Origin: Cyanobacteriota bacterium | GTDB taxonomy: Bacteria > Acidobacteriota > Vicinamibacteria > Vicinamibacterales > UBA2999 | Direction: 5' to 3' | NCBI GenBank assembly: GCA_019752015.1 | Contig: JAIEMQ010000042.1 | Coordinates: forward strand, 1-64,000 | Length of the DNA: 64,000 nt | The notes under the pieces: generated by a model | Database searches by the model: none | What the model was told of the DNA's origin: nothing | The model's input: the letters and a program-made list of their open reading frames with translations, nothing else | Part shown: in pieces, positions 1-10,081 of the stretch | Numbering within the stretch: position 1 is the first letter of the stretch | How the letters are laid out: the number at the start of each line of letters is the position of its first letter | Program-made: the position numbers and the translations under genes

Positions 1-8
1 TCCGACGA

Positions 9-72
9 GTGATCAGCTTGCCCAGAATCGGCGATCACGATGACCGGACTGAGCGATCACGATGGCCGGAAT
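9..72. repeat. Three 20-bp direct repeats, 22-bp period (possible IS21-type end)
   Basis: Copies start at 9, 31 and 53. The last two differ at very few positions (core gcgatcacgatgrccgga); the first is more diverged. Regularly spaced terminal repeats of this sort, with GATCACGAT and CCGGAAT words, resemble the multiple terminal repeats at the ends of IS21-family elements. No transposase is in the window, so the element would extend to the left. Assignment is inference. Confidence 0.4.
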
Positions 73-87
73 GCGCATGCAAGTCGG

Positions 88-1108: not shown

Positions 1109-2062
1109 TCAGACGGGCTCTGAAGGAGTAAAGTTTCGGAACTTTCCGGTGGTGACGCGTCTGCTGGCCGTCACCTCAGAGATCCCCCTTCTAGCGACAC
1201 TCGCATCACGCGTTACTGCCCGTGTTCCGTCGAGCTCCGCGACGCTGATGAGACGCATGGCGACGACGGAGCGAACCACTGCACAAGGCAGCGCGCCACT
1301 CCAAAGCGGCCATGTGATCTTCGTATCTGTTGCGCGCTCGCCGGAGAAGGCCGTGGTCTTCAGCTTCGCTCCACGGGGCACGCTTGGGAAAAGCCGGAGC
1401 CCTTCGATCGCTAATCGGTTGGCGCCCCTGACGGTCCGAATCTTATCGGTCGCGGGCTCCTTCCAGCGCAGGGCGTAGCGGCGATCATCTTCGGGATCCC
1501 AGCGCATGCTCGGCCCTTCGTCCTGATAGTTCCACGGTTCAAACAACGCGCGTTCGATCTGCTGGGCTGATGTGGATTCAACCAGCTGCCTCATGAACTT
1601 GAGGAAATGCTGATGGCCGGCCCCACTCATCGTTCTGAACGCTGTGTCCTGAAGCTGCTCGTCACCGATCGCATCGCACGCGAAAGCGGCCGCGAAGTCG
1701 GCCAACCGCGCATCGTGCTTTGCGGTCGCAGCGGCGCGGCCGGCGTACTGACGGTAGTCAGCAGGCGACAGGGTCAAATTGTCAGCGATATCGCCACCTT
1801 GCACCGGCGGAGCGAACGGCTTCGTCGAATCAACGCTGCTCAATCGAGCGAAAAGTGACGTGACCACCGACTCCCGAGTGATCGCGCCTGCTGATGAGAT
1901 TATTGGTCGCCACGAACCCCCGATCTGCCATCGCATGCGCAAGTCTGGAAATGACGGGTCCTCGTCCAAGGTGACCAACGTTCCCATGGCGGCTAAGAAA
2001 CCCAACAGATGAAGTCCGTCGAGTCCGGGCAATTCGAGATCAAAGGCCGGCGGTCTCACCAT
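1109..2062 (-). CDS. csb3: Type I-G CRISPR protein, Csb3/Cas8-like (Cas3-extension type)
   Basis: 317 aa, last gene of the cas operon, overlapping the end of cas3 by 7 nt. It begins LELPGLDGLHLLGFLAAMGTL, the glycine/leucine opening seen in several Cas8-like and type I-G accessory subunits, and has MSGAGHQHFLKFMRQL near residue 148 and a conserved-looking SMRWDPEDDRRYALRW near 190. This resembles the short I-G (I-U) protein encoded beside Cas3. It would serve as large subunit or Cascade-Cas3 adaptor, but I cannot separate Csb3/Cas8u2 from the Cas3-extension family by eye. No frameshift. A separate large Csx17 is absent from the locus. Confidence 0.7.
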   Translation of the reverse strand: MVRPPAFDLELPGLDGLHLLGFLAAMGTLVTLDEDPSFPDLRMRWQIGGSWRPIISSAGAITRESVVTSLFARLSSVDSTKPFAPPVQGGDIADNLTLSPADYRQYAGRAAATAKHDARLADFAAAFACDAIGDEQLQDTAFRTMSGAGHQHFLKFMRQLVESTSAQQIERALFEPWNYQDEGPSMRWDPEDDRRYALRWKEPATDKIRTVRGANRLAIEGLRLFPSVPRGAKLKTTAFSGERATDTKITWPLWSGALPCAVVRSVVAMRLISVAELDGTRAVTRDASVARRGISEVTASRRVTTGKFRNFTPSEPV

Positions 2063-5000
2063 GCCGAGTCCTCTGTCCCTTGATGGTCCGATGCCAGTAG
2101 CTCTTCTTCTTCACTCCGTCGCGCATCCGCCAGGCGCAACACCGCCTCGAGATAGGCAGCGCCCCACCAACCGAACCTTCGGACAACGTTCCAAAATCGC
2201 TCAGCGACGCCACTATCGAGTGCTTCCAACCCCGTGACGACATCGGCGTGTAGCGACCGACCACCCGAGAGCCTGACCCGGACTCGACGCCGCCTATCGT
2301 CGGCCCCAATACGATCATCGATCACTGGCGCAAACGGCCGACACCAACCATGGTGGCTAGCGATCAGGTGAGCCACAAGGTCGGCGTCTACGTCCCGCAA
2401 CAGATCCGCATCGCTTTCGATGAGGCGAATGGACAGCAGTTCATGCCGGCCGCCTTTGGGGTATCCCGCGAGCTCTCGAGTACGGTTGCGCTCGCTGCTC
2501 GATTTGGGCAAGCCTTCAGACTTACCCAACAATTCCTTGCCTGAAGCCAACCACTGATTGCCGCCACGAAGCCACGCCTGAAATCGTGGATCCGCTTTGC
2601 CCAGGTCGTGAAGGTCGGCGCTTCGCGTTAGGCCTTCGACCATCGACTCGTCGAGGCCTGAGCCAACTGCAAAGTCTCTGGTCCATCGTTGCACCCCGTC
2701 GATATGCTCCCACAGCTTTACGTTCACAGTAGCTGACGCGGAATCGTCGCTTTCGGCGAACAGCAGTGCCACATCGTCAAAGGCTCCAGTCAGGAGTGCG
2801 CGAACCGTATCTTTGGCAACGCGACGCCTGGAGAAAATCACGAGTCCTCCGTGTGGGTGTCGCCTCACTTCGCAGCGACTGTTGCGCCGTAGAAGGTGTC
2901 TAGCAGCCGCGTTTCTGAATCGGTCGGTCGCATCCTCCACCGCGCGCTTCAGGAACACTTCAATTTCGTCACGATGCGGGTCTGTCACGCAAGCAACGTG
3001 TTCAAGGAGGCGACCTGCCGCCTCTCGGGCCGGACCCTCTGGCCACCCTTCGACGGCGCTCGTGTTGATCCGAATCACTGCGAGGCATCGCATCGTCAGG
3101 TGCACTGCCTCAGCGCAGTCGATCGCGGCCGATGTGAGAAGCGGCGAAGCAAGATGTCCGACTTCGTCCCAGCCCTTCAAACCTGCCGGAATGACGAGCG
3201 TGTCTCCCGGTTTCAATTCAGCGATACTGTTCTCGGGCTGCCCTGAGGTCACCACGAAGCTGCCGTCGTTTCGTCGCCCGGATCGCCGGAACACGAGTGC
3301 CCACCGATCAACATCGCTCGGCGCTTGATCAGGTTCTTCTTCTTCTTCTGCGTCCGACACGCCTTCGGCGTCAGATTCGAAGCCGGGATCTTGGAGACCT
3401 CGCAGCCACCGTCTAGCCGCGGTCAGTGGGACCGGCATACACTCGCGAGCTGACGGCGGGCAGATCGCGACCGTTTCGATCGCGGATTCAGACGAATCGG
3501 GAATCGCATCGGGCAAGTCAGCCCGCCAACAAATCTGCACTTGAGGCACGACCCGACTTACGCCGTGAAGAAAGACGTCAACGTCGGGGTCCACGGCCGG
3601 CGTGGGGCTCGTCTGCACCCAGCAATCGAGGTACGCAGGGAGAACCACAGGCGCGTTTGGAAGAACCAACTGGAGATCATTGCTCGGCGACGCCGAAAGC
3701 AGAGCCGCCATTGACTCAATCCCGAAATCGACCGAGTTTGGGTCCTTCGCGACGCTGGATAGCCACGTCCATGTCTTTCCAAGCGCCTGGCCATAAATCG
3801 GGTCATCAGCATCCGCCCTCGCTTGCTCCTTCCTCACCACTACCAGGGCTCTTGACGTTATCGGTCGACCGCTGCGGTTGAGGCGACCAAACCGCTGGCG
3901 GAGTGCGTCAAGACTCGCGCACTCCGCGATGAGGTCATCAAAGTCGAGGTCGGCACCAACTTCCAGTGTTTGAGTCGCAATTACGATGGTCGGCTTCTCC
4001 AACGGGATTGCCGCGCCATCAGGAGTGCGACGTTTAGCCGTATGGATCGACTTCAGGTTCGCAACGGCGATATCTCTGTCGACCGGTCGCATTCTGCCTG
4101 TCAATAGGACCACGGAGGGTCTGTCGTCGACTGCAGGTGATGAGAGCCGACTAAGGACTGCCTTGTAGATCAGGCGCGCGGCCAGAACCCGATTAACGAT
4201 CACACCGACTGCCCGGTGACCGGAGGGCGATTGACTGAACTTGATCGCTTGATCCGCAAGACGCCCGGCGAACTCCTCCAGGCCTTTGGGGGTCGTTGTC
4301 CTTGCGCCGATCTCAAGCGTCGCAGGTTTCGCTGCCGTGAGCCGCTGCGACAGTACCGGGTGAGACCGATCGTCTTCCTCGAGGCTGAACGTATTGTCGC
4401 CGACACTGGACGGCGGCGTGGCTGTCATTACCGTATATGCGAACGGCAGCGGGAGCGGTTGGGTCGCCCATTCCGCACTGCGATATCGAGCAATCGCCTG
4501 CAAGGTTTGAAGAAACGGATTCGCGCAATGAGCCTCGTCGAGAATGATCAATGCGTCATTGCCGCAGAGGCCCGCGTGGATGGGCCATTGTCCCGGCGAT
4601 GCTCCGTACCCCCTGAAGAGGAGCCGCGATCCCAACTGATCGACAGTGCTGGCGATGACGGCGGGTTGCAAAGGACTTCGCAGCCAGCAATCATCGCGGA
4701 AGATGCCGCCGCGCAGAGTCGCCACCGCCAAGGGCACCGAGTCAGCCGGCCCATCGCTCACGCCCTGCCCGCCCTGCGCCAGAAACCTAAGGCGTAAGGC
4801 TGCAGACCGAAGAACCGCAGGGGCATCCTCTGTCTGGGCTGCCCACTGAAGGCGGGTCGCGATCCTTTGCGCTCTCTCCGCAGCCTCGTCTACAACCACC
4901 CGTCGGTCGACGACGAAGAACACTCGCCGTGGCGCACGGCGCACCGACGTCTGGTCCGCCTGGACAGCCAACGCAAAGATCGCGATATCGATGGCGCAAG

Positions 5001-5184
5001 TCTTTCCCGTTGCGGTTGGCAATGCCAGCCAAGTGGGCCACTCGCCTCCGCTGGCGATGCGTGCGGAGAGGCGCGATTGCCAGGGAAACGGCGTGATCCG
5101 CGGCGACTCCGCTGCCGGATCGCGGTGCAGGGCGTCGAAGAACTCGGCGAAATGTTCCGGAAGGAGTGAGGGAAGCGAGGTCAT
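2056..5184 (-). CDS. cas3: Type I-G CRISPR helicase-nuclease Cas3 (GSU0051 type)
   Basis: 1042 aa from the ATG at 5184, which overlaps the csb2 stop (ATGA); an upstream in-frame extension is ignored. The SF2 helicase comes first: Walker A PTATGKT (56-62), DEAH (216-219), VMTATPP (motif III) and QRFGRLNRSG (motif VI). The HD nuclease is C-terminal: EHIDGV, LHDLGKADPRFQ, GGRHELLS and ASHHGWC supply the metal-binding His/Asp set. The helicase-HD order is opposite to the usual HD-helicase and is characteristic of the GSU0051 subfamily. Both activities look intact, so target DNA unwinding and degradation should be possible. Confidence 0.93.
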   Translation of the reverse strand: MTSLPSLLPEHFAEFFDALHRDPAAESPRITPFPWQSRLSARIASGGEWPTWLALPTATGKTCAIDIAIFALAVQADQTSVRRAPRRVFFVVDRRVVVDEAAERAQRIATRLQWAAQTEDAPAVLRSAALRLRFLAQGGQGVSDGPADSVPLAVATLRGGIFRDDCWLRSPLQPAVIASTVDQLGSRLLFRGYGASPGQWPIHAGLCGNDALIILDEAHCANPFLQTLQAIARYRSAEWATQPLPLPFAYTVMTATPPSSVGDNTFSLEEDDRSHPVLSQRLTAAKPATLEIGARTTTPKGLEEFAGRLADQAIKFSQSPSGHRAVGVIVNRVLAARLIYKAVLSRLSSPAVDDRPSVVLLTGRMRPVDRDIAVANLKSIHTAKRRTPDGAAIPLEKPTIVIATQTLEVGADLDFDDLIAECASLDALRQRFGRLNRSGRPITSRALVVVRKEQARADADDPIYGQALGKTWTWLSSVAKDPNSVDFGIESMAALLSASPSNDLQLVLPNAPVVLPAYLDCWVQTSPTPAVDPDVDVFLHGVSRVVPQVQICWRADLPDAIPDSSESAIETVAICPPSARECMPVPLTAARRWLRGLQDPGFESDAEGVSDAEEEEEPDQAPSDVDRWALVFRRSGRRNDGSFVVTSGQPENSIAELKPGDTLVIPAGLKGWDEVGHLASPLLTSAAIDCAEAVHLTMRCLAVIRINTSAVEGWPEGPAREAAGRLLEHVACVTDPHRDEIEVFLKRAVEDATDRFRNAAARHLLRRNSRCEVRRHPHGGLVIFSRRRVAKDTVRALLTGAFDDVALLFAESDDSASATVNVKLWEHIDGVQRWTRDFAVGSGLDESMVEGLTRSADLHDLGKADPRFQAWLRGGNQWLASGKELLGKSEGLPKSSSERNRTRELAGYPKGGRHELLSIRLIESDADLLRDVDADLVAHLIASHHGWCRPFAPVIDDRIGADDRRRRVRVRLSGGRSLHADVVTGLEALDSGVAERFWNVVRRFGWWGAAYLEAVLRLADARRSEEEELLASDHQGTEDSAW

Positions 5185-6683
5185 CACTCGGCCGTCAACG
5201 GTCGGCACAAACCATAGCCCTTGAATCTGCCTGCTCCAAGGAGCAGTGGACCGATAACAGGCTCTGCGAACCGCATCCACGCATGCGTGTGCATTCGCTT
5301 AGCAGCGCCGATTTTGAACGGCACTGGAGGGAACTCTCTGGCCGTCGGCACCCCCCGGAACATCGACACCGAGTGCGCGCCGCATTCAATCGGCGCCTTG
5401 AGCCCCACTCGTTCACATGCGAGCCGAATCAATGCCTCGACGTCCCCATCCTTCTTCGGAAATCGATCGAGTACAAGTGGCGTGACGGTCGCCCACGTGG
5501 TCGCGCCGAATTGTGGTTCCTCGGTCCACGATCGCGGTTGCAGCGTGAGGGGCCGCGCTTCGCGCTGATCGATCTCCACCCGCCAGTCAAGCAGCGCACC
5601 ATCATAAAGTGCCAACCCGTCGTCGTTTCTGGAATATGCGTCTTCCTGCGCACGCATCAGAGCGTCCATAAGACTGCTGACATCATCGGGATTGAGATCG
5701 CGGGGGAACGCAACGCCGAGGCCGAGAAGCATTCCTTCCGCGTACTTGTGACCTATATCCGCAAGAGGCACGAAGGCCGCGTGTCCGCCATTCGCGGGCA
5801 TGCCATCGGCGCTGTGACCGCTGAGCCACTGCGCCACCGGCTGCGGACTGAGCGTCATTAACATTCCTCTCAAAGCGTTGGTAACAAGTAACGTGGACTG
5901 AAGACCCAATCGACGCCCACCGATCTGCCTGAACACCAACAAGCTAGGGTCGAAAACTGTCTTGCCGGTGTCCTTGTCCATGGGTCTAGCCGGAGGCCCG
6001 TAGGCCGTCCAACTTCTAGCGGTGGGTCGGCGAGGAAATCTTGCCTCCAGATCCCGCAGTCTGCCTTCGCCGATCGCGCGCAGGCGAATCCCGCTACCAC
6101 CTTCCTGAGGCTTCAACGTCGGTTCCGGTGGCTGATCGGTTGTCCACGCTTGGACGAGTGACGCCGAATGGCCGATCCGCACCATCTTGGCACTCAAGCG
6201 ATCGATCGCGGCGCGCACGTTAGCGGTGGGTTGTGCATCTGGCCAGATGAAAAATACGACGGGATCCATGCCGTCCCACAGGTTCTGTCGCTCCCCAGAT
6301 GGAAGAGGAACTGCGACCGGGAATCCCTTCGGCTGCCTGGAGCGATTCTCCGGTAGGACCCTGACTCCCTTCGTGATGAGATCAGGCGACGGGGTTTTCT
6401 TGGCCGACAAACGTGGCACCTCGTCGTCGTTGACCGGGACGAATGCGATAACCGCCGTTCGCTGACTCCATTGCTGCTCAACGGCAAGGGATGGGTCGGA
6501 CAGAGACTCCAACCAAATCAACGCATCGCGTTCCTCGCTGTCGGCGCCGGTCTCGAAGTGCGCGGCTGCCAGAGCCAAGAACAATCGATCGGGGTGCGGT
6601 GGCCATTCGGCGCGCGCGCGAACCTTGCCGTCGCTCGCGGCCATCGCCCACCCGCAGAGGTAGCGAATCCCGAGGGCAAACAC
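5184..6683 (-). CDS. csb2: Type I-G Cascade subunit Csb2 (Cas5-Cas6-like, GSU0054)
   Basis: 499 aa, GTG start, 2 nt after the csb1 stop; its own stop overlaps the cas3 start. The family hallmark EWPPHPDRLFLAL lies at residues 26-38. Csb2 is regarded as a fusion of Cas5-like and Cas6-like modules that caps the crRNA 5' handle and processes pre-crRNA. The C-terminal part has a HAWMRFAEPVIGPLLLGAGRFKGYGL-type stretch, with the glycine-rich G(R)FKGYGL loop typical of RAMP/Cas6 proteins. Length and both ends look complete. Confidence 0.92.
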   Translation of the reverse strand: MFALGIRYLCGWAMAASDGKVRARAEWPPHPDRLFLALAAAHFETGADSEERDALIWLESLSDPSLAVEQQWSQRTAVIAFVPVNDDEVPRLSAKKTPSPDLITKGVRVLPENRSRQPKGFPVAVPLPSGERQNLWDGMDPVVFFIWPDAQPTANVRAAIDRLSAKMVRIGHSASLVQAWTTDQPPEPTLKPQEGGSGIRLRAIGEGRLRDLEARFPRRPTARSWTAYGPPARPMDKDTGKTVFDPSLLVFRQIGGRRLGLQSTLLVTNALRGMLMTLSPQPVAQWLSGHSADGMPANGGHAAFVPLADIGHKYAEGMLLGLGVAFPRDLNPDDVSSLMDALMRAQEDAYSRNDDGLALYDGALLDWRVEIDQREARPLTLQPRSWTEEPQFGATTWATVTPLVLDRFPKKDGDVEALIRLACERVGLKAPIECGAHSVSMFRGVPTAREFPPVPFKIGAAKRMHTHAWMRFAEPVIGPLLLGAGRFKGYGLCRPLTAE

Positions 6684-6685
6684 CG

Positions 6686-7936
6686 CTACTCCTCTGTATT
6701 CCCGCCGACAGTTGCTGCGAGATTCTGACTCTTAATGACTAACTCCAGAAGATCTGGCGACGGGGTCAGCTTGATCTCGCCATCCCTCCACGGCAAACCT
6801 GCGGCAGTCGCGGCCTTGACTGCGTCACTGAAGACGGCGATGGACTGCTCGCCAGTAAAAGAATAGTGCTTCGACTCGGTCGCTGGAGCCCCGATTAGTT
6901 CCCACGTGGGCTCACTCGACGAAACAAGGAAGCAGCGCGAGCGGAGGTCGGCGCCCTGTTCCCTCTGAAGCGTGGCCGCGCACAAGGCCAGAGATGCAAG
7001 CGCGGTGCGGGCAGCAACGTCGACCTCGGTCGTTGAGGAAATCGCGTTGCCAATAGGAAAGCGAAGGCGTCTTAACGCTGGGAGGGAAAGGACCGTAGTC
7101 TGAAGTGCTCGATCAACAGTGAAGCCTCCATCCTTGATGCTCGGGGTCACATTACCAAGATTGGCCTTCGACGGTTCGCCTGCGGTGCCTTTCTCACTGC
7201 CCCTGTTAAAGGGGATTGGCTTGCCATTCTTGTCTTTGGCCGCCTTCGAGGGATCCAACACCCAAAGTGCCCCCTGATCGGGCTTCAGAGCCAGATACAG
7301 TGTGTCACCGGTCTTTGTAATCTGCGTGGGGTCGATGCGACTACTCGTATTCTTTCCCGGAACCGCGTTGATCCCCACAATCTCCGAGACAAGAGCCCGC
7401 TGAAACTTTGCTCCTAGCCCTCCACGAGGACCGGTCGAGTCCCAAAGGCCAAACACCAACGCAGTGGGACATAGCTCAAACAGCTTTGTGGCGTTCGCAT
7501 TGGACACTTCGTCCAGCGACGCGCCTTCGGGAGACTTGCGGAACGGCTTGCCATCCGACGAAAGGCTGTCTCGGAAGATTGCGTCAGCGATTCGATGCGG
7601 TGCATCGAGACTGGTAACCCGAAAACGCTTTCGCAGACGCGGGTCGTCGAACGAGACGGAAATCCGCGGCAACGAAATCAGTTGCCGCTCAAGCGCATCC
7701 TGCAGGACCAGTTCAGCGCGATTGGCCTGCGACTGAACCGAATCAATCAACACGCAGGGCACTTGCTTGCCATCGAGCACACGCTCTTCGACGGCGTATT
7801 CACCCTTTTCGTAGGTCGCCGGGAAAATTTTGTCACCCACGCCTCCAGCAGGCTGCAATTCGGTTCTGGCCCGAAACGCAGTTCCGCTCGTCTCAACGGC
7901 CGTTCGAATGATCTCGAATGTCAACTCAGTGTTCAT
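6686..7936 (-). CDS. csb1: Type I-G Cascade backbone Csb1 (Cas7-like, GSU0053)
   Basis: 416 aa, first gene of the operon. Diagnostic motifs are LQPAGG (27-32), DKIFPATYEKGEYAVEER and DSVQSQANR (65-73), the Csb1/Cas7u signature. It would polymerise along the crRNA spacer. The ATG is preceded by GAGGAAG at about 9 nt, a good ribosome-binding site. The four genes 7936 to 1109 are overlapped or nearly abutting, so one transcript is expected, starting in the interval with the repeat remnant. No cas1, cas2 or cas4 follows or precedes within the window. Confidence 0.93.
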   Translation of the reverse strand: MNTELTFEIIRTAVETSGTAFRARTELQPAGGVGDKIFPATYEKGEYAVEERVLDGKQVPCVLIDSVQSQANRAELVLQDALERQLISLPRISVSFDDPRLRKRFRVTSLDAPHRIADAIFRDSLSSDGKPFRKSPEGASLDEVSNANATKLFELCPTALVFGLWDSTGPRGGLGAKFQRALVSEIVGINAVPGKNTSSRIDPTQITKTGDTLYLALKPDQGALWVLDPSKAAKDKNGKPIPFNRGSEKGTAGEPSKANLGNVTPSIKDGGFTVDRALQTTVLSLPALRRLRFPIGNAISSTTEVDVAARTALASLALCAATLQREQGADLRSRCFLVSSSEPTWELIGAPATESKHYSFTGEQSIAVFSDAVKAATAAGLPWRDGEIKLTPSPDLLELVIKSQNLAATVGGNTEE

Positions 7937-8007
7937 AATTGGTAACTTCCTCGGTCGAAGGAGGTTAACTGCAAGTGGTGACAGGACGGGTCACGAGGCA
8001 TAGACTG

Positions 8008-8109
8008 CTTCAATGGGGCCGCTGATTTCTCAGCGGAATACATTGGGTGATGCGGAGATCATCACTTATACCAACTCTTCAATGGGTCCATCCGCCATGA
8101 ATCGGATAC
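8008..8109. CRISPR. Minimal CRISPR remnant: one repeat, one spacer, one degenerate repeat
   Basis: Repeat 1 (8008-8041, 34 nt) contains a perfect 7-bp stem, CCGCTGA (8019-8025) and TCAGCGG (8030-8036), around a TTTC loop, the usual hairpin form of type I repeats. Repeat 2 (8077-8109) shares the exact first ten bases (cttcaatggg) and the end (cgga..tac), but its centre has diverged and the stem is lost. The 35-nt segment between (8042-8076) would be the only spacer, and the 69-nt start-to-start distance is normal for such arrays. It lies 70 bp upstream of csb1. Transcription direction is unresolved: on the minus strand the repeat ends ATTGAAG, a common crRNA-handle motif. With only one clean copy this stays provisional. 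Confidence 0.55.
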
Positions 8110-8150
8110 TAGAGCAGTTCCTTTTCTGTTTCAAGTCTCTTTAATCTCTT

Positions 8151-8366
8151 ATGCCTACAAACACTTTCTCTGTTACCCTGAGCCGTGACGAGGATGATTA
8201 TGTCATTGCTGAGTGCCCTGAGATACCGGGGTGTGTTAGTCAGGGCCGGACAAGAGCAGAGGCGATGGACAACATCCGCGATGCGATCCGCGAATGCCTG
8301 GTCGTCAGAAAAAAGAAGGGACTGCCGTTGACCATCGCCGTCGAGCGAGTCGAGGTTACTGTGTAA
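8151..8366 (+). CDS. hicB: HicB-family antitoxin
   Basis: 71 aa. FSVTLSRDEDDYVIAECPEIPGCVSQGRTRAEAMDNIRDAIRECL is the partial RNase-H-like HicB fold; the motif E.PEIPGCVSQG.T..EA..NI.EAI is the family signature. This short form lacks a C-terminal DNA-binding helix domain, so promoter control may need the HicA complex. The stop overlaps the hicA start (TAATG). The hicB-first order is one of the two known arrangements. Confidence 0.92.
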   Translation: MPTNTFSVTLSRDEDDYVIAECPEIPGCVSQGRTRAEAMDNIRDAIRECLVVRKKKGLPLTIAVERVEVTV

Positions 8367-8590
8367 TGCCGCCCGTGCCGCTGCTGCGGCCCAATCAAGT
8401 TGTTCAAGCCTTCGAACGACTGGGCTGGTCGGTAGCGCGCCGACGCGGCAGCCACATCATCCTCACTAAGGCCGGAAGTTCCGCAACCTTGTCCGTCCCG
8501 GACCACTCGGTAGTCGCCAGAGGCACGCTGCGCTCGCTCATCACCCGAGCCGGCCTCTCAATCGAAGCGTTCGTCGCAGAAGTGAAGTGA
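8366..8590 (+). CDS. hicA: HicA-family mRNA interferase toxin
   Basis: 74 aa from the ATG at 8366 that overlaps the hicB stop; a longer upstream extension would cover hicB and is rejected. It is a dsRBD-like HicA fold with the active-site histidine in [10 protein letters not shown] (about residue 29) and the second conserved element [22 protein letters not shown]. HicA cleaves mRNA and is neutralised by HicB. It is intact. It lies just outside the CRISPR remnant and transcribes away from the cas operon. Confidence 0.92.
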
Positions 8591-8610
8591 CCGCGTTCAG
8601 AGTTACGCAG

Positions 8611-8810
8611 TCGCCGGCTTCATCGGCACCGGCTTGAGCGCCTCGGGTGTCCAGTCTTCGCTCGTCGTGGGTGCCGCGCTCGACAATCTCCCCGCCTTCC
8701 ATCACCAGGATCTGGTCGGCGCTGCGGATCGTCGACAGCCGATGCGCGATCACGAAGGTGCGGCCGCTGTCGAGGCTCGCGGTCGCCTCGCCAGGATCAG
8801 CGATCGTGAC
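8611..8810 (-). pseudogene. Decayed copy of the 3' end of the ABC exporter gene
   Basis: On the minus strand this encodes fragments such as [31 protein letters not shown], matching the C-terminus of the intact exporter at 10152-12071 ([20 protein letters not shown]). Three blocks align: 8611-8655 with about 10170-10215, 8664-8765 with about 10299-10404, and about 8766-8805 with 10458-10498. They are joined by internal deletions of roughly 85 and 50 bp. No start, no Walker A and no intact tail remain. It fills most of the hicA-retropepsin interval. Confidence 0.8.
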
Positions 8811-9434: not shown

Positions 9435-9836
9435 CTAAGTGATGACCGAAAAACCTTCCTGCTCGAAGTGTGCATCGAACGCGAAGACTTCGGTCATCTG
9501 TCGCTGCCGCATGGTGACGAAGGAAACCGCGTCGACCAAACTCACTGTCCGTCTCCGCCGGTCCAGGAGAAAGTCGAGTCCCTCGTCGTGCAGGGCCTGA
9601 TCCACCCACACGACGTCGAGCAGCGGGGCAAAGTCGGCCCGGAATCGCCGTACGGCGTCAATGCCAAGTCGGCGGCCAAACAAGGCATAGGCTTCCACCA
9701 ACACGAATGAAGTGCAGATCAGCGGCACCTGGCGCGTCCGGAGCGTTGCGAAGGCATCTTTTGCACGACCGTGGTTTTCGTCTTTCGCGTTCAACAGCGC
9801 GAGCAGACCGGACGTATCGGCGAAGACAGCGTTCAC
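9435..9836 (-). CDS. vapC: VapC-family PIN-domain ribonuclease toxin
   Basis: 133 aa, normal for VapC. PIN-domain acidic residues are visible: FADTSG (Asp7), FVLVEAYAL (Glu about 48), SLVDAVSF (Asp about 101) and VFAFDAHFEQEGF (Asp about 121), the Mg2+-binding quartet of these RNases. It overlaps its antitoxin by 4 nt and follows it, the standard vapBC order. It is intact. Confidence 0.93.
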   Translation of the reverse strand: MNAVFADTSGLLALLNAKDENHGRAKDAFATLRTRQVPLICTSFVLVEAYALFGRRLGIDAVRRFRADFAPLLDVVWVDQALHDEGLDFLLDRRRRTVSLVDAVSFVTMRQRQMTEVFAFDAHFEQEGFSVIT

Positions 9837-10081
9837 TCGAATGCCTCATCGAGATACCGATCGTGGCCGGCTGCGAGGTCACGCGCGCTCCGGTGATCCT
9901 CGAATTTACCTATCAAGCGTGCTGCGCGTGCATACAACGCGGCGCGATCCACGCCGTCCTCAGCCAGACCTTTCTCCACATAGCGACGGATCAGCCCGGC
10001 CATGGACACACCAAGTTCGCGAGCTTCGGCCCGTAATCGTCGAGCCTGCTGTTCTGAAAGTTGAATTTGCGTCCTTACCAT
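9833..10081 (-). CDS. vapB: Ribbon-helix-helix antitoxin of the VapBC pair
   Basis: 82 aa. The N-terminus MVRTQIQLSEQQARRLRAEA is an RHH/CopG DNA-binding motif and GLIRRYVEKGL follows; the C-terminal acidic segment (KFEDHRSARDLAAGHDRYLDEAFE) is the expected toxin-binding tail. It starts 71 nt from the 3' end of the ABC exporter gene. A damaged relative lies at 88-381, so this antitoxin family has been present at least twice in the island. Confidence 0.88.
   Translation of the reverse strand: MVRTQIQLSEQQARRLRAEARELGVSMAGLIRRYVEKGLAEDGVDRAALYARAARLIGKFEDHRSARDLAAGHDRYLDEAFE

Follow-up and report, generated by a model that had tools for sequence, protein, structure and literature searches.

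The csb1 locus and its type I-G system

We analyzed a 64,000-nt stretch of DNA (the window) from a Cyanobacteriota bacterium (assembly GCA_019752015.1, contig JAIEMQ010000042.1, here called C24), which carries the interference genes of a type I-G CRISPR (clustered regularly interspaced short palindromic repeats)-Cas system and, beside csb1, a small element in which a spacer-like segment lies between two unequal repeats (Table 1). All four genes, csb1, csb2, cas3, and cas8g, are without frameshift, pass the curated NCBIfam cut-offs, and have PADLOC matches too, so that the intact interference module proposed in the initial annotation, made from the sequence alone, is borne out by two profile libraries. 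The element adjoins csb1 in the same sense, its second repeat lying 71 nt upstream of the gene, and its order on the minus strand, handle, guide, and then hairpin, is the anatomy of a CRISPR RNA (crRNA).

Table 1. Positions of genes, repeats, and predicted sites in the window
Feature	Position	Strand	Evidence
cas8g (type I-G large subunit)	1109..2062	-	PADLOC Cas8g E 2e-88; NCBIfam NF049934 above cut-off
cas3 (helicase and HD nuclease)	2056..5280	-	NCBIfam TIGR02621 E 2.6e-211, above cut-off; start GTG
csb2 (Cas5-Cas6 fusion, I-G crRNA-processing subunit)	5184..6683	-	NCBIfam TIGR02165 E 1.7e-75, above cut-off
csb1 (Cas7 backbone)	6686..7936	-	NCBIfam TIGR02570 E 1.9e-19, above cut-off
Second repeat, intact 7-bp hairpin and ATTGAAGC end	8007..8042	-	33/36 identical to C12 array repeat; hairpin in fold
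Guide, spacer-like, 33 nt	8043..8075	-	Register from repeat alignment
First-repeat remnant, 12 nt with 8-nt 5' handle, hairpin half lost	8076..8087	-	10/12 identical to repeat end
Predicted promoter TTGAAA-17-TAGTAT into guide gene and csb1	8106..8134	-	Consensus scan, 9/12
Guide-matched site (bases 1-17; 13/15 readable positions)	8142..8158	-	PAM TTT 8159-8161
hicB-like antitoxin gene	8151..8366	+	Pfam UPF0150 and HicB_lk_antitox, E about 2-3e-5, both below curated cut-off
hicA toxin gene	8366..8590	+	Pfam HicA_toxin E 4e-14, above cut-off

The second repeat departs from the repeat of an array elsewhere in the genome at three positions, all within its first four bases, leaving 32 consecutive identical bases, and the Rfam model CRISPR-DR16 matches 8007-8041 with an expect value (E) of 0.0002, below the gathering score. 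This match and the 32 copies elsewhere in the genome confirm that the lone repeat is more than chance. The predicted fold of the guide RNA retains the hairpin (z-score of the whole RNA -1.38). The layout of one repeat, one segment, and one degenerate repeat given in the initial annotation stands, but the segment measures 33 nt rather than 35 nt and the repeat has the limits shown in Table 1. An ordinary array would have at least two near-identical repeats with spacers, whereas here there are one near-complete and one half repeat; moreover, a full cognate array with 31 spacers exists on another contig, C12, and the element is guide-like rather than an array cut down to one spacer, as had been suggested. 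The repeat parts that were kept, the handle in the first and the hairpin in the second, are those that a mature crRNA needs, which supports reading the element as a guide gene.

A search of all 82 contigs of the assembly (5.9 Mb) at the DNA level, the check recommended with the initial annotation, found 32 perfect copies of the repeat on C12, which in register form an array of 32 identical 36-nt repeats and 31 spacers of 34-41 nt. The sole Cas1 match of the assembly is also on C12, as a Cas4g/Cas1g fusion that adjoins the array and, upstream, cas2. The supposed absence of cas1, cas2, and cas4 is therefore true of C24 only and wrong for the genome, and the proposal of crRNAs or adaptation supplied by another array is consistent with the cognate array and adaptation genes of C12. 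With Csb1, Csb2, Cas3, Cas8g, the Cas4-Cas1 fusion, Cas2, and the array, the type I-G set is complete in the genome, and, taken together, the locus and C12 resemble a complete immune system. The same gene set and a 36-nt repeat belong to type I-G in the accessible text of PMC9638904; the difference here is that the interference genes sit on one contig and the adaptation genes and array on another. An unbroken run of csb1-csb2-cas3-cas8g-cas2-cas4/1 is present in three of the 14 loci of same-order relatives (L049, L050, and L057).

The starts of C24 (window positions 1-77) and C12 (positions 30-202 of locus L009) are related tandem-repeat ends of the insertion sequence (IS) type, 77% identical over 71 nt. 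The C24 end is also found on C39 and C82 (100% over 75-77 nt), and the C12 end has relatives at 77% only. These tandem-repeat ends probably broke the assembly at the starts of both contigs, and it is possible that C24 and C12 are chromosomal neighbors with an IS insertion and an assembly break between them. A gene on C77 encodes a putative IstB of IS21.

Guide matches upstream of csb1

Positions 6 and 12 of the guide are bases that type I Cascade (CRISPR-associated complex for antiviral defense) does not read, which leaves 15 readable positions among the first 17. On the minus strand, the first 17 bases of the guide have a partial match 83 nt away, at 8158-8142, which differs at guide bases 3, 6, 12, and 16 and is accompanied by a TTT protospacer adjacent motif (PAM). 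On 17 nt this is the best TTN match within the window, at 13/15 with the next at 10/15, and its score was equaled by 0/1000 shuffled guides when the PAM and the unread bases were used, by 1/1000 without the PAM, and by 8/1000 with neither. Among the three non-self genome sites with at most two mismatches, TTN occurs only at the csb1 site, the others having GCC and CTG. A second target in the first 20 kb of C12 was rejected, the best candidate reaching 12/15 with PAM GGC and lying away from cas2.

A consensus scan of 7850-8700 gave two promoter-like sites compared with 0.3 expected. One of them, at 8106-8134, adjoins the guide-matched site. A 33-nt Cascade footprint starting from the matched site would extend to 8126 and so cover the -35 box of the predicted promoter for the guide gene and csb1. 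The other promoter-like site (7978-8006, plus strand) would read antisense through the guide gene towards hicBA.

We surveyed 94 csb1 upstream regions (91 distinct), comprising 80 from a contig search (the best 80 of 400 relatives), 13 from same-order relatives, and the window; the duplicates (L051/L095, L053/L124, and L072/L073) include no match. A guide was defined by each handle resembling CATTGAAG (at most one mismatch) and scored against its own region. When a TTN PAM was required and only the 15 readable positions counted, a score of at least 13 was reached by 11 of 89 handle-anchored guides compared with 0/627 controls from 20 permuted handles, and with scoring blind to the PAM and unread positions 11/89 reached at least 14/17 compared with 10/1276 controls from 40 permuted handles (Fisher 1e-8), three of those ten control matches falling in the true L127 pair. 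The rules were fixed after the window and L052 had been seen; excluding those two, the TTN count is 9/86 handles. The union of both scorings is 13 loci: the window, the same-order relatives L052 and L056, and ten further records, from Thiococcus pfennigii, Truepera sp., Candidatus Binatia, Alphaproteobacteria, Caldilineaceae, Nitrospira sp., Victivallales, Verrucomicrobiota, and two Bacillota metagenome-assembled genomes. Of the three rows with a blind score of 13/17, L097 and the window, whose PAM is TTN, were kept; the third, a further L106 row with AGT, was left out.

In all 12 matching loci other than the window, the csb1 upstream region holds the best match for the guide anywhere in the sequence fetched. 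When the search instead began from the hairpin and left 36 start positions free, all ten matches of at least 13 outside one array started directly after the handle; two L122 rows (score 14) were dropped as array repeats matching each other, and L127 was missed. Eight same-genus genomes gave no csb1 match.

Positions 6 and 12 account for 12 of the 22 mismatches in the blind set, compared with 2.6 expected, and the middle base of the PAM is T in 11/11 and the first two bases TT in 9/11. Across 14 pairs, which include one from a second, more distant set (L171, see below), mismatches number 18/28 at positions 6 and 12, 16/210 over the rest of 1-17, and 162/224 at 18-33. Pairing ends at base 17, although no stop was selected for. 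According to the accessible text of PMC9638904, type I-G has a TTN PAM, Csb2 leaves an 8-nt handle, and each Cas7 presents five readable bases. Apart from those at 6 and 12, the 14 pairs have 16 mismatches within the first 17 positions, ten of them at 3, 9, and 15, the middle of the five-base blocks; the way in which I-G Cascade reads a block might account for this.

Two of the surveyed loci differ in their repeats. In L056 the region upstream of csb1 holds four degenerate repeats (7942-8182) that run on the opposite strand, and one of their spacers matches the csb1 upstream region at 15/17 with mismatches at 6 and 12 only; it is possible that this locus is an intermediate between an array and a single guide. 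L104 (upstream of 7001) keeps the hairpin in both flanking repeats, unlike most other candidates.

A candidate guide gene for cas control and its alternatives

We infer that the "one-spacer array" at 8007-8087 is very probably a CreR-type guide gene of this type I-G system, damping its own cas genes. Its anatomy, the cognate array, the partial match with its PAM, the unread-base pattern, and the recurrence in other phyla are read directly from the DNA. Recruitment to gene regulation, one of several fates offered in the initial annotation for the locus, is thus the best reading of the small element but not of the whole locus.

The guide gene would be transcribed from the minus strand towards csb1, and Csb2 would cut the transcript into a crRNA-like RNA with an 8-nt handle, a 33-nt guide, and a 3' hairpin. 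This RNA would load into the I-G Cascade encoded next door, which would be held at the csb1 promoter region by three pairing blocks (1-5, 7-11, and 13-17) and the TTN PAM, blocking transcription of the csb1 operon through binding and repression. Three blocks of five pairs would be too short for a full R-loop and should therefore not lead to Cas3 cutting. Expression of the cas genes would then be set by the Cascade left free of ordinary crRNAs from the 31-spacer C12 array, and would rise in response to crRNA load or anti-CRISPRs, as Cascade was titrated or inhibited.

Several results weigh against this proposal. The window pair is among the weakest of the set (13/17, mismatches 3, 6, 12, and 16); shuffles reach its score in 7/1000 cases over 24 nt and in 102/1000 over 33 nt, and over 24 nt a TTN site at 9913 in the window scores equally. 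There is no genome-wide excess of sites, those with at most two mismatches outside the element itself numbering three compared with six for the reversed pattern, and the CTG PAM at one of the other genome sites is near-permissive. The promoters are consensus matches only. A Bifidobacterium I-G system has the PAM TAT in the accessible text of PMC12915315, so TTN is not universal in type I-G. Under the survey rule, 81 of the 94 csb1 regions show no element. A second set of 40 regions, mostly from distant csb1 relatives and partly overlapping the first set (L040 repeats L058, L169 overlaps L152, and L033 and L043 are copies), gave only one of 46 handles with at least 13/15 and TTN compared with 0/660 controls, and blind scoring of it found only a plain direct repeat compared with 12/660 controls. 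L166 and L168 were left out because csb1 was not located, the 17/17 match in L151 was dropped as a direct repeat, and another L151 candidate (12/15, PAM TTC) was not counted. The count of 1/46 implies that the element occurs mainly near closer csb1 relatives, or that the handle rule misses it elsewhere. The one match is on a Methylomagnum ishizawai plasmid (L171; PAM TTG, mismatches 6, 8, 12, and 15), where csb1 is annotated as two overlapping genes (6001-7225), so that this copy may be broken though the guide element persists.

Repeat remnants are common at array ends, and the window match taken alone is modest under longer scoring, as would be expected were the element a decayed remnant of an ordinary array and the local match due to chance or local duplication. 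This is nevertheless very unlikely in light of the survey compared with its controls, the handle-anchored start, the unread-base pattern, the PAM, and the end of pairing at 17, and also because the second repeat has kept its 32 consecutive array-identical bases. A working single-spacer immune array directed against an invader would suit a segment whose 33 nt come close to the C12 spacer length (34-41 nt), but we consider it hardly credible, since the first repeat is without a hairpin, a full array exists on C12, and a match for the guide lies next to csb1 in the same genome. A search of viral_contigs in which every sixth guide base was free to vary gave no match; this is weak evidence because the C12 array likewise found nothing in "phages" by megablast (whole array as query; single spacers not searched). 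The frozen immunity against one target entertained in the initial annotation is accordingly unsupported, the notable match being the one that adjoins csb1.

The guide could also, or mainly, repress the divergent hicBA genes, with loss or inhibition of Cascade releasing the pair in the manner of a CrePA- or CreTA-like guard. The hicB start codon lies within the guide-matched site, and CRISPR-repressed protein toxins are on record (PMC12737573, section 3). As an explanation of the element this is unlikely: guide matches occur upstream of csb1 in 12 other survey loci too, the HicB matches are below Pfam cut-offs, and a CRISPR-repressed toxin requires repression of the toxin alone, whereas here repression would fall on the antitoxin as well. 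A tblastn search of the 94 other loci with the HicB and HicA of the window (E 0.01) found neither, though a divergent pair could be missed, and this makes control of the cas genes the shared function. An added effect of the guide on hicBA in this genome is possible. That one guide and one Cascade site, over the cas -35 box and the hicB start, silence the cas operon and HicBA together is quite unlikely. If true, anti-CRISPR attack or loss of Cascade would raise cas expression and free the toxin pair at once, a combined CreR and CrePA-like guard of which no description was found in the accessible text of the CreR and CrePA literature cited here.

Genes resembling toxin-antitoxin systems surround both halves of the system. 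The window has, besides the HicBA-like pair at 8151-8590, a MazF/PemK-like gene (379-717) and a PIN-domain gene (9435-9836), and on C12 a Phd-family antitoxin gene and a small neighbor precede cas2 (L009, 245-924). On a Thermus thermophilus plasmid (L174), a HicB-family antitoxin is annotated at 477-731, about 5 kb upstream of an I-G Cas7 gene.

The CreR-type reading, if true, would extend guide-directed cas control to type I-G, at csb1 and across several phyla. The pairing rule derived from the genomes (three blocks spanning 17 nt, with positions 6 and 12 skipped and no pairing past 17) is precise and testable, and describes a way in which I-G Cascade may bind its target yet not bring about its destruction. 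One-spacer "arrays" by cas genes would deserve testing as regulators before being labeled remnants, and Thiococcus pfennigii and the Methylomagnum ishizawai plasmid, as named candidate carriers, open the way to experiments.

Comparison with CreR, CreTA, and CrePA

CreR is a cas-regulating RNA, reportedly described by Liu et al. in Cell Host Microbe in 2023. The element in the window appears CreR-like by its anatomy and matching site, being a repeat-flanked spacer-like segment beside a cas operon with partial complementarity, at a permissive TTT PAM, upstream of that cognate operon. The published scheme, in which the guided effector complex represses the cas operon (PMC12737573, section 3), is the same as that proposed here. 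Titles and abstracts in the literature searched include none that joins CreR or CreA with type I-G, a scope outside which lie the primary CreR paper and most subscription papers; in the accessible text of the CreTA papers I-G appears only as a reference title, and the supplement of the primary CreR paper could already predict I-G cases.

CrePA likewise has a toxin gene adjoining the matched site, although its toxin is typically KilA-N in section 3.3 of PMC12737573, where a protein antitoxin is unmentioned, in contrast to the HicBA pair here. A closer structural parallel is CreA of CreTA, from type I-B systems of haloarchaea and others. Experiments on I-B CreA (PMC8501985 and PMC9458426, accessible text) established that handle and hairpin are divided between the two repeats, that the PAM is TTC, and that positions 6 and 12 do not matter for pairing; bases 1-5 and 7-11 of the guide are enough there, and CreA is directed at an RNA-toxin promoter (PMC8501985). 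The element shares with CreA two degenerate repeats, the first with the 8-nt handle and the second with the 3' part, a TTN PAM (TTC there, TTT here), and the dispensability of positions 6 and 12, whereas it differs in having a third matching block, 13-17, and a site located upstream of csb1 rather than at an RNA-toxin promoter; the toxin found in its neighborhood is the protein HicA.

With CreR, in the accessible descriptions, it has in common a crRNA-like guide gene by the cas genes that is partially complementary to sequence upstream of the effector operon and lacks a full-length target. The differences are that CreR is reported for types I-B, I-E, and V-A (review PMC13131331), whereas the present system is of type I-G, pairs over 17 nt in three blocks, and has a site that also lies over the hicB start.

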